Below, in pieces: positions 7,634 through 12,289 of a stretch of 34,403 nt of DNA. The stretch is taken from positions 1 through 34,403 of the forward strand of contig CAIOAK010000180.1 of assembly GCA_903855945.1 (NCBI GenBank), given 5' to 3'. Position 1 is the stretch's first letter. Each line of letters begins with the position of its first letter. A program made the translations under genes and the position numbers. The stretch is from an uncultured Anaeromyxobacter sp. GTDB lineage: Bacteria > Myxococcota > Myxococcia > Myxococcales > Anaeromyxobacteraceae. The notes under the pieces are model-generated. The model made no database searches. It was given only the letters and a program-made list of their open reading frames with translations, and was not told the DNA's origin.

Positions 7634-10600
7634 ATGGAACGACTCCCGCCCGCCTTCGCCCACCTTGCCTCCCACTGGACCCCCGGCGTCTCGCCCGAGC
7701 GCGCGCTCGTCGAGGAGACCCGCTCCGCCCTCCTGGCCGCGCGCCCCGCCGATCTGCGGGCGGTCGCCGAACTGGTCGAACGGCTCGACCCCTGCCTCGC
7801 CGCGCCGGAGACCCGAGAGACGGCACGCCGCGCGCTCTTCGGCCTCATCGACGCCGCGCGACGCCGCGCCTTCACCGAGGCGATGTCCCCCGCCGACATC
7901 GATCCGTGGACCCGTCTCCTGGTCGGGGTCATCGATCGGTCCGATCACACCTTCGGTGACATGCTTCGATCGCGCGAGGAGACCGACCCGCGGGTGGTCG
8001 CCATGCGCGTGCACGGCGTGGACGACTCCGAGCTCACGGTGGCCGACCTGGCGCGGCGGACCCGCGCCATCGCCCGGGGGCTGCTCGCCCTCGGCCCCGA
8101 GGAGGGACCGCTCAAGGTCGCCATCCTGGCGGAGAACTCGCTCGACACGGCGCTCGCCGATCTCGCCTGCCTGTCGAACGGCATCGTCGATGTCCCCCTG
8201 CCGGCGAACGCCACGTCCGAGCAGGTTTCGTACATGCTCCGTCACTCGGGGGTCCAGGTCCTCGTGGTCTCCGACGAGGAGCAGGTGGAGAAGGTCCTCC
8301 CGGCCCTCCCCGGACTCCCCGACCTGAAGCAGGTGCTGGTGGCCTCGCAGGCCACCGCCGACCGGCACGGCCTGCTCTCCCTGGAGCAGGCCATCGCGCA
8401 GGGCGCCGGCGCCTTCGACGACGAGGAGCGGGCCCTTCGCGCCTCCCGGGTTCGGAGCCGCGACCACGCCACCGTGATGTACACGTCCGGGACCACCGGA
8501 CGCCCGAAGGGGATCGTCTTCGACCACCTCAACCTGGTGTCGAAGCGGCTCTGCCGTGGATTCGCGCTTCCCCACCTGAACGAGGGGGACGTCTTCCTGG
8601 CGTACCTGCCGCTCTACCACACGTTCGGCCGGTTCCTGGAGATGAGCGGGTCGCTCTGGTGGGGCGCCACCTACGTCTTCGCCCGGTCCACCGGCCACGC
8701 CGCGCTCGTGGAGGACTTCCGGAACGTCCAGCCGACGGTGTTCATCTCGGTCCCCAAGAAGTGGATGGAGTTCCAGGAGACCGCGCAGCGCCAGGCCCCT
8801 CCGGACGACGTCGAGGCGGCGGCTGGACAGCTGCGCGCGCTCACCGGAGGGCGCCTCTCCCACGGCCTCTCCGCGGCGGGATATCTCGACCCGATCGTCT
8901 TCCGCGCCTTCCATCGCGCGGGGGTGGAGCTCTGCTCCGGCTACGGGATGACCGAGGCCACCGGCGGGATCACGATGACCCCGCCGGGCGAGTACTTCGA
9001 CGGCTCGATCGGCAAGCCCTTGCCCGGCATCGACTGCGTCCGCGCCGAGGATGGAGAGCTCCTCATCCGCGGACCGTACGTGAGCCCGGGCTACTTCCAG
9101 CCCGAGGGGGAGGAGGCCGAGGCCCATGACGCCGAGGGCTGGTTCCACACCGGCGACCTCGTCTCCATCGATGCCGAGGGGCACTTCCGGATCACCGGCC
9201 GCAAGAAGGAGATCTACAAAAACCGGGCCGGGCAGACCATCGCCCCGCAGCGGGTCGAGAACCTCTTCCGGGACTTCGACGACCTCTCCCAGGCCTTCCT
9301 GGTCGGCGATCACCGCGAGTACAATACACTCCTGGTATGGCCGAACTTCGAGGGACGTCCCGAGCTCCGGCAGCGTTCGCCGGAGGAGCTGCAGCGGCTC
9401 GTCTCCTCGCTCGTCGCCTCCGCCAACCGATTCCTGGCCCCGTTCGAGCGGGTGGTGGCCTTCCGCATCCTCGACCGGGCGCTCGACGTGGAGCACGGCG
9501 AGCTGACCCACAAGGCCACCTTCAAGCGGGACGTCGTCGAGAAGAACTGGAAGGAGCTCATCGAGGGGATGTACCGGAGCCGGGCCCTCTCCCTCTCCGT
9601 GGACGGCATCGGCCTGCGCATCCCCAACTGGGTGCTCCGGGAGATCGGCGTCCTGGTCGAGGATGTCTCGCTCCGCGGCGGAGAGCTGCGCGCCGGCCAC
9701 ACCACGCTCCGCGTCTCCGTCGACCCGCGCGCGCCGGGCTCGATCCGCGTCGGGGACCTCGCCTACCGTCCGGAGGGGGGCGTGCTCGACCTGGGGTCGG
9801 TGCTGGCCCACCCCACCCTCTGGCTCGGCAACGAGGGGCTGCGCCGCTTCCTCGGCGAGGAGGCCTTCCGCACCCTCGCCGTCCGGCGCCCCAAGGGCTC
9901 CGGCGAGGTCCACCTCGACCCGCGGGTCTGGGAAGCGCCCGATCCGGAGCGGCTCCCCGTACTCGTCGAGGGCGTGGGGAAGGACGAGGCCACGGTGGAG
10001 TCGATCCACGCCGCGGGAGAGCTGCTCCGCGCCGAACGCCCGGAGGCACGGCGCGCCCTCTCCCACCTGGAGCGGGTGCTCGCATCCGGCCGACGCGAGA
10101 TGGTCCCGCTCGCGCGCGGCCTCCTGCGCCGCTGCGCGGATTCCCCCGAGGAGGAGGTCCGCCGCCGCGCCTTCCGCAGCCTGCTCCCGTACGAGGAGCC
10201 GAGGCGAACGGTGGAGACCCTCCAGCTCTTCCTCGACCGGCTGGGGCCCCAGGCGCTCCGGGAGGAGGACCTCGTCACCTTCGGCGAGAAGGGGCTCAGC
10301 GAGCCGCAGGTGGAGGCGCTGCTCGGCGCCCTGCATTCCCCCTCGGCCCTCGACCCCGACCAGGAGACCTCGAACCGGCGCCTGCTCTCGGGCGCGATGC
10401 GCCTCGCGGTGGCCTTCTCGATCGCGCATCCCCACTGGTACTCCCGGGTGCGCGTGCCGCTGGCGCGCCTCACCTTCCACCCCCATCCCTTGCTTTCCGC
10501 CCGGGCCGCGGAGGAGTACGACCGGAACCGGCGGGGCTTCCAGCACTGGCTCGGCCCGAACCAGCGCATCGCCTTCGATCCGGCCAGCGGCGACGAGTAC

Positions 10601-12289
10601 ACCTGGCGGGACGTGGTCCACTTCGAAGGGGCGCTGCCGCCGCGCACCGTCGACCTCCTCCTGCGCGCCTTCAGCGAGGCCACCTTGGTGCGCAGCTCGG
10701 CCTTCGTGCTCGGGCGGGGCGCGCTCACGTCGCTCTCCGACATTCCCCCGGCGGGGATCACCGTCACGCTCCTCGGGCGGCGGCTCGGCAAGTCGGTCTA
10801 CAAGGTCTCCATCACGACCCGCGCCGGCGAGAGCTTCGACTTCGCCCTGAACCACGCCGAGACGATGCCCCCCGCGGAGCTCCGGGACGAGGTGCTCTGG
10901 CTCCTCTCGTCGGGTGCCCCGCCACCGCTCGTGGAGGCGTTCGGGAGCTACCATCCGGACTGGGGCATCTACACGGAGGAGTTCATCCCCGGCGAGAACG
11001 TGGAGCAGCAGTTCACCCGCCTCGACAGCAAGGGCGAGACGCGCCGGCTCCTCAACCAGTGGCCCTTCGTGGCCTGGACGGGGCTGGCGGCCCACGTGGG
11101 CTTCTGGGACCGCACCGGCCGGCGGGTGGCGCTGCGCGACCCCTCCCCGGCGGCCTTCATCGTCCCTTCGCACGACTACCAGACGGGCGCCCGGCTGGTC
11201 TCCATCTCCGACCGCGGCTCGGTGGAACGGCTCGACGACGTGCTCGATCGCTTCGAGACCGCCTTCGTGACCCCCACCGAGGCCCTCTTCCCGACGCTGC
11301 GCGGGGGGCTCGGTCCCATGCTCCGATTCTCCGCCGTCATCGAGGCGCTCGGGCTGGAGCGGGGGCGCACTGCGCTCTCCTCCTTGCAGCCCGGTCCGCG
11401 CGCCGAGGCGGCCCTCGCCTTCCTCGCCCAGGTGGACGCGACCGGGTTCACCTCCCGGCCGGTCCACTTCGCCATCGAGCGGTTCCGGCGCTGGCGCGCG
11501 GTGAATCCGAACGCCACGCTCGAGGCGCAGGGCACGATGCTCGGCGAGCTCTGGACCACCTACAAGCTGGGCGAGGTGGAGCGGGAGTGGCCCGACACCC
11601 GCATCCGCTTCTTCCGCCGCACGGTCTTCGCCGACGCGCGGGAACCCCTCACCGCGGCGCTCGACAGGCTCATGGGACGGGCCCGGTCTCTCCCCTACCT
11701 GGGGCTCGACCTCCGGGAGCACATGGCCGGACTGCGGGAGGCGGTCCGCCCGGACACCCGGGAGGACTACTTCCTGGCGCGGATGACCTTCCGCCACCTG
11801 CGCCCGGGCGACGACACCTCGCTCATCTCGCTGGAGCGCGGCGACCACCTCACCGCCGAGGTGGTGGTGGGGCTCACCGACGAGAAGGGGGAACGATACT
11901 CGGTGCGCGCCGCCCGCACGCCGCGTGAGGTGGCCCGGCTGCTCCAGCTCTTCCGGGAGTCGAGCCTGGACGTGACCTTCGAGCCCGAGCACCGGCACCT
12001 CGTGGCCGTGGACGCGAACGACGTCGTCATCGGCGGGGTCTTCTACCGCCAGGTGTCCCCGGACCGGACCCACATGGAGAAGATCGTGGTGGGCCGCAAG
12101 CACCGCGGCCAGGGAGTGGGGGACGGCATCATCCGGGAGCTCTCCCGGCGGCAGAGTGCACGGGGAGTGAAACAGCTGGAGACGGGCTGGTTCCAGCCGG
12201 AAGTCCTCCACCGCTACGGCTTCCGGGTGGACCCGGCCTCGGGCGGCATGGTCATCGAGCTGGCCCGGACCCCCGCCACGCCCGGGTGA
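7634..12289 (+). CDS. Multidomain acyl-CoA ligase (AMP-binding) - uncharacterised middle - GNAT acetyltransferase
   Basis: One uninterrupted 1551-residue frame. Residues 1-110 are helical and unassigned. Residues 110-650 are an adenylate-forming ligase of the long-chain acyl-CoA synthetase type: [11 protein letters not shown] near 283, [24 protein letters not shown] near 436, HTGDL and [17 protein letters not shown] near 505-535, and a C-terminal lysine motif ATFKR near 626. No carrier-protein DSL motif is seen, so it is not an NRPS module. Residues about 650-930 contain a beta-rich piece and then Arg/Glu-rich helices like an alpha-solenoid. Residues about 935-1330 hold an unassigned domain with GKSVYKVSI (1052-1060), RDPSP (D1169) and ISDRG (D1193), loosely like a degenerate kinase fold; this is a weak guess. 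Residues about 1435-1548 are a GNAT domain with the acetyl-CoA loop HRGQGVG (1490-1496). ATG 7634 is used. A homocitrate synthase gene follows after 4 bp. Substrate and role are unknown. Confidence 0.85.

Follow-up and report, generated by a model that had tools for sequence, protein, structure and literature searches.

The window analysed here, a 34,403-nucleotide stretch of DNA from an uncultured Anaeromyxobacter sp. (contig CAIOAK010000180.1 of assembly GCA_903855945.1), carries an open frame of 1,551 codons at 7634-12289 (+), from ATG to TGA. Its product, termed the megaprotein below, joins an AMP-forming acyl-CoA synthetase domain through a long middle region to a C-terminal GNAT (Gcn5-related N-acetyltransferase) domain. 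This ligase-GNAT chain is not a chance fusion; in every full-length relative the two end domains lie in a single uninterrupted frame of comparable length. Genomes with the megaprotein nearly always encode a eukaryotic-type citrate synthase, often close by, and this association supports a functional link between the two proteins. The megaprotein might be a regulatory acyltransferase of central carbon metabolism that acylates or controls this citrate synthase, a reading held tentatively and at low confidence.

Architecture and conservation of the megaprotein

The whole gene (7634..12289, +), which has full-length homologous frames, encodes a ligase, a beta module, a helical stack, a kinase-like fold and a GNAT domain. 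Pfam assigns AMP-binding (PF00501) to aa (amino acids) 119-488 (E 9.4e-66; 222.6 bits against a gathering score of 29.9), AMP-binding_C_3 (PF23562) to aa 533-649 (E 3.2e-9) and Acetyltransf_1 (PF00583) to aa 1448-1511 (E 7e-6; 26.8 bits against a cut-off of 20.7). With these matches, and with its quoted motifs present where it had placed them, the claim of an earlier note on this DNA that one chain carries an intact acyl-CoA-synthetase-type domain and a C-terminal GNAT domain holds. The note had also stated that the chain lacks the carrier site of nonribosomal peptide synthetases (NRPS), and indeed Pfam detects no carrier-protein domain anywhere in it (E up to 1).

The ligase domain spans aa 104-649 (7943..9580, +) and is nearest to long-chain fatty-acid ligases. 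Long-chain fatty-acid-CoA ligases are also its best NCBIfam models, although none of the 25 best exceeds its curated cut-off (206 bits against 950 for FadD11; 195 against 476 for NF004837). The ATP-binding motif of 11 residues lies at aa 283-293 (8480..8512, +), a second ligase motif of 10 residues at aa 436-445, and the lysine motif GELTHK contains K627 (9512..9514, +; ELTxKxxxKR), the candidate catalytic residue, which we take from family knowledge to be the ANL catalytic lysine. Across the 73 full-length relatives used for all conservation counts, T284, S285, G286, T288 and K292 of the ATP-binding motif are invariant, as are T440, E441, D508, R523, K525 and K627. The PF00501 score, together with the ATP-binding, TE, TGD, R and lysine motifs, places the domain among the ANL (AMP-forming) acyl-CoA synthetases.

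The GNAT domain occupies aa 1394-1551 (11813..12286, +), and its predicted structure superposes on Gcn5 over 128 residues (VIA Z 16.7). The sequence HRGQGVG is present at aa 1490-1496, and R1491 and G1494 of the GNAT P-loop (R/Q-x-x-G-x-G/A) are kept in 63/73 relatives. E1482 (12077..12079, +) is a candidate general base; the position is acidic in all 73 (E in 53, D in 20), and its correspondence to the Gcn5 glutamate is putative.

Between the end domains, the earlier note had reported about 800 residues matching nothing. At the level of sequence this stands: aa 650-1430 gave no significant match in Pfam or among PDB sequences, even as a profile of 21 relatives, and the search with hidden Markov models found no known family covering the middle. 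The lone PDB match, a hydroxylase at E 0.42-0.46, was dismissed as chance. Since predicted strands at 1394-1425 run into the GNAT domain, the stretch free of family assignment is about aa 650-1393. At the level of structure the claim gives way: AlphaFold2 models of aa 640-1551 (predicted local distance difference test score, pLDDT, 89.3) and aa 970-1396 (pLDDT 91.3) show recognisable folds. According to the secondary structure of the predicted model, a beta-rich module follows the ligase at aa 651-761 (9584..9916, +), and a predicted HEAT-like helical stack comes next at aa 771-973 (9944..10552, +); the HEAT_2 profile matches the middle weakly and below cut-off (E 0.076-0.36), and the model shows stacked helices.

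The models, Foldseek and VIA point to a degenerate protein-kinase-like fold at about aa 982-1320 (10577..11593, +), followed by more helices to about aa 1390. The isolated model aligns with Bud32 over 209 residues at 3.9 A (VIA Z 11.9), and further matches are PRPK (Z 11.8), choline kinase (11.1) and Rio1 (11.0). All 50 best structural rows are kinase-fold proteins, and these matches exceed the usual Z background of 7-8 given by the comparison tool. Alignment of the region with three kinases of the same genome by hhalign reached a probability of <1%, so the kinase assignment is one of predicted fold. The domain is likely a pseudokinase: the putative beta3 lysine (1073) is N in 51/73 relatives, with K not among the commonest residues, and aspartate stands at the putative catalytic-loop position 1169 in 23/73 and at the putative DFG position 1193 in 24/73. 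These three positions were assigned from secondary structure plus an insignificant hhalign match, which keeps the pseudokinase assignment at likely rather than proven. An inserted hairpin of the kinase-like domain carries a P-x-H-D-Y-x-x-G motif at aa 1178-1185 (11165..11188, +), in which D1181 is found in 73/73 relatives, Y1182 and G1185 in 68/73 each, P1178 in 67/73 and H1180 in 64/73. Three distant Bacteroidota-type members of 1,528-1,541 aa (L127, L128, L129) keep the ligase, the GNAT domain and D1181, and have I or L in place of H1180. Among the searched genomes, no clearly shorter complete protein contains the kinase-like region, fragments at contig edges being uninformative.

The survey for the same architecture that the earlier note had suggested returned single-chain relatives in at least three phyla. 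A scan of 84,980 species with only two peptide patterns, which cannot establish that other phyla lack the family, found 39 loci. They belong to Myxococcota, Ignavibacteria/Melioribacteraceae and Marinimicrobia, and the ligase-middle-GNAT chain is present at every one with a complete contig. Among 195 genomes of the window's phylum, the middle occurs in 24/24 Anaeromyxobacteraceae plus one other, and relatives at 85-88% identity are uncultured Anaeromyxobacter. The profile search detected the family in 21/395 Bacteroidota-type and 70/199 Marinisomatota-type genomes, these two phyla being named after their centre genomes (a Melioribacteraceae and a Marinimicrobia genome, respectively). Members there are nearly always a single frame of 1,494-1,640 aa, frames of odd length lying at contig ends or extending upstream. 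Identity falls to about 27%, and in a FastTree phylogeny of 72 megaproteins, built with no outgroup, the phylum groups mostly stay together. The frame is thus unsplit in relatives, and full-length relatives in many assemblies rule out a split gene, an assembly error or a chance frame.

An antisense frame of 1,663 codons at 7406-12397 (-) spans the whole megaprotein gene. It is most likely a GC-rich by-product rather than a real gene, because the forward frame is the one conserved across phyla.

Association with eukaryotic-type citrate synthase

The citrate synthase in question is of the eukaryotic-like type by NCBIfam NF007128, a type known from Geobacteraceae (PMC3415069). It is encoded in 111/116 genomes with the megaprotein and in 115/673 without it. 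The pattern recurs in each phylum: 24/25 against 5/170 for the Myxococcota type, where the sole exception is a 74%-complete genome, 66/70 against 40/129 for the Marinisomatota type, and 21/21 against 70/374 for the Bacteroidota type. In 12 genomes that were checked, only one citrate synthase per genome is encoded.

Gene neighbourhood points the same way. When 680 neighbour proteins were clustered, citrate synthase formed the only abundant cluster with members from both Ignavibacteria and Marinisomatota loci; it is a neighbour at 18/23 Ignavibacteria loci and 11/25 Marinisomatota loci, and by coordinates the two genes lie within about 5 kb in 14/21 Bacteroidota-type and 21/70 Marinisomatota-type genomes. 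Over the three phyla the citrate synthase gene takes four arrangements relative to the megaprotein: co-directional and upstream, co-directional and downstream, divergent, or downstream in convergent orientation. In Ignavibacteria it mostly directly precedes the megaprotein gene in the same orientation, and in one clade of Marinisomatota it is convergent and downstream. Among the Myxococcota loci it is co-directional and upstream at L057, L058, L059 and L071, co-directional and downstream at L074, and divergent at L082. On the tree of 72 proteins, the neighbour trait requires 8 changes. Near-nesting of the megaprotein within one citrate synthase type in three phyla, combined with these four arrangements, supports the functional link.

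The association might be no more than inherited gene order or shared ancestry, as the largely group-following protein tree and the clustering of the neighbourhood on it would allow; the variety of arrangements and the near-nesting across three phyla speak against this explanation, which we regard as decidedly improbable. The near-exclusive occurrence with one citrate synthase type suggests that a partner of the citric acid cycle, or a point of its control, has been overlooked.

Possible roles of the megaprotein

Architecture, conservation of the ligase residues, predicted folds, and co-occurrence and neighbourhood with citrate synthase are the observations from which we infer every catalytic step, which acyl group is moved, what accepts it and in which direction regulation works. 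The ligase would use ATP and CoA to turn a free carboxylic acid, one most resembling a fatty acid, into an acyl-CoA; the GNAT domain might take that acyl-CoA, or acetyl-CoA, to acylate an amine; and the most likely acceptor would be a lysine of the eukaryotic-type citrate synthase. Docking or sensing may fall to the helical stack and the degenerate kinase-like fold, and the megaprotein would link the supply of acid and acyl-CoA to flow into the citric acid cycle. Because the family co-occurs with, and often neighbours, citrate synthase, a target in central metabolism is likelier than an unspecified amine. Precedents exist for parts of this scheme: lysine acetylation alters the activity of E. 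coli citrate synthase (review PMC11254643), and the GNAT AcuA is found in a stable complex with the AMP-forming ligase AcsA, which AcuA acetylates (PMC11255334). In the window's family, homocitrate synthase is perhaps a further target. A more specific version, in which a pseudokinase with a new H-D-Y site senses a metabolite and the chain activates an acid with ATP and acylates citrate synthase, would make the megaprotein an undescribed class of citric-acid-cycle regulator; it is rather unlikely.

Several observations weigh against control of citrate synthase. Some members of the Marinisomatota type have a degenerate GNAT P-loop, and the 115 genomes noted above possess the citrate synthase and lack the megaprotein. 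Fisher p-values for the co-occurrence (1e-24 to 6e-15) ignore shared ancestry and overstate its strength, since the genomes are not independent. In most of the window's family the citrate synthase gene is not near the megaprotein gene, whose neighbour in the same direction is homocitrate synthase. No lysine or other ionisable residue distinguishes citrate synthases that co-occur with the megaprotein from those that do not, and there is therefore no dedicated acceptor signature; the only residue to separate the two sets is a position-1 serine, which falls at the start codon, and there the sets differ in their sequence ends.

Other roles can be drawn from the same domains. The GNAT domain might acylate K627 of its own chain when acyl-CoA is plentiful, making the megaprotein a self-limiting acyl-CoA synthetase, an in-chain analogue of Pat/Acs or AcuA/AcsA that would touch citrate synthase through acyl-CoA supply only. 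Fusion of GNAT and ligase in every lineage, the invariance of K627 and the AcuA-AcsA precedent all fit, but the large conserved middle and the co-occurrence with one citrate synthase type go unexplained, and this role is rather unlikely. A small-molecule N-acyl-amide synthase, in line with the reading of the earlier note, would form acyl-CoA in the ligase and transfer it by way of the GNAT domain to an amine or an amino acid, with the middle as a scaffold. The domain content agrees with this, as do the resemblance of the ligase to long-chain fatty-acid ligases and the acyl-ACP thioesterase gene that adjoins in the window's genus; yet biosynthetic or export neighbours do not recur across lineages, where citrate synthase is the only recurrent cross-phylum metabolic neighbour, so that such a synthase also appears fairly improbable. 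Should the ligase merely feed a CoA ester to citrate synthase, with the GNAT and kinase-like domains only sensing CoA or nucleotides, the neighbourhood, the co-occurrence and the invariant ligase residues would be accounted for. This we consider unlikely, in that long-chain ligases, not acetyl-CoA ligases, are what the ligase resembles, and the mostly kept acidic residue and P-loop of the GNAT domain suggest catalysis.

Regulatory acylation of citrate synthase, if true, would mean that the bacterial eukaryotic-type enzyme has a dedicated control layer, and the megaprotein and citrate synthase form a concrete, testable protein pair. The protein concerned, about 1,500-1,640 aa long, occurs in about one third of sampled Marinisomatota-type genomes and in all sampled genomes of the window's family, with half of its length matching no model and no role described in the libraries and papers searched.

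Neighbouring genes and relation to known systems

A homocitrate-synthase-type gene (12294..13433, +; TIGR02146, 441 bits against a cut-off of 413.55) starts 4 nucleotides after the megaprotein stop and lies directly downstream in the window and in most searched family members. Re-citrate synthase was considered as its identity; the gene passes the homocitrate synthase model, and a literature search gave no paper joining both terms. A divergent acyl-ACP thioesterase-like gene (6807..7547, -; PF01643, PF20791) lies 86 bp upstream and is kept in place only in the window's genus. Elsewhere in the window, a class I Glu/Gln-type tRNA synthetase with a C-terminal GatB/YqeY domain in frame is found at 30259-32775 (+), and an over-long frame at 23367-26456 (-) contains HMGL-like and LeuA dimerisation domains of the citramalate/isopropylmalate synthase type. 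At seven Ignavibacteria loci (L075, L076, L081, L085, L086, L088, L089), two squalene/phytoene-synthase-type genes and one amine-oxidase-type gene are found upstream of both the citrate synthase and the megaprotein, and at several of them a CTP synthase lies downstream. At L127, an isocitrate-dehydrogenase-like frame (18153-19418), judged by eye from its N-terminus only, lies four genes from the distant megaprotein.

A literature search for an AMP-forming ligase-helical stack-kinase-like-GNAT architecture, incomplete in coverage, found no description. Reviewed GNAT classes comprise fusions to NDP-forming inactive ligase-like domains, fusions to effector domains and stand-alone GNATs (PMC11254643); none of these joins an AMP-forming ligase to a kinase-like fold and a helical stack. 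The Pat/PatZ-type lysine acetyltransferases (GNAT types I and II) resemble the megaprotein in combining a ligase-like domain with a GNAT domain in a large chain, and in a link to central carbon metabolism. In them the ligase-like domain is of the NDP-forming kind and reportedly inactive (PMC11254643), whereas that of the megaprotein is AMP-forming with conserved catalytic residues and is separated from the GNAT domain by the helical stack and kinase-like fold; membership of Pat types I/II was rejected on this PF00501, AMP-forming assignment. AcuA-AcsA likewise pairs a GNAT physically with an AMP-forming ligase, but as two separate proteins with an acetate-specific ligase and no middle domains, and the abstract and outline of that report mention no citrate synthase link (PMC11255334).

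Single domains have closer counterparts. Long-chain fatty-acid-CoA ligases (FadD11-like, NF004837; PF00501 plus PF23562) share the fold, motifs and catalytic lysine, but their models are about 500-600 aa long and lack the middle and the GNAT domain, and the megaprotein scores far under their cut-offs. Bud32/PRPK, RIO and choline-kinase-like kinases share the overall predicted fold of about aa 982-1320 (Z 11.0-11.9); the megaprotein departs from them in that the putative positions of the beta3 Lys, the catalytic-loop Asp and the DFG Asp are not conserved, and in its conserved P-x-H-D-Y-x-x-G hairpin. Like carboxylic acid reductases and NRPS modules, the megaprotein begins with an adenylating domain in a large multidomain chain, but Pfam finds neither a carrier nor a reductase domain in it. 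The megaprotein thus belongs with the multidomain ligase-GNAT proteins, with a role that is possibly new, and the repertoire of GNAT fusions would gain an AMP-forming ligase that looks active from its conserved residues and a predicted pseudokinase.

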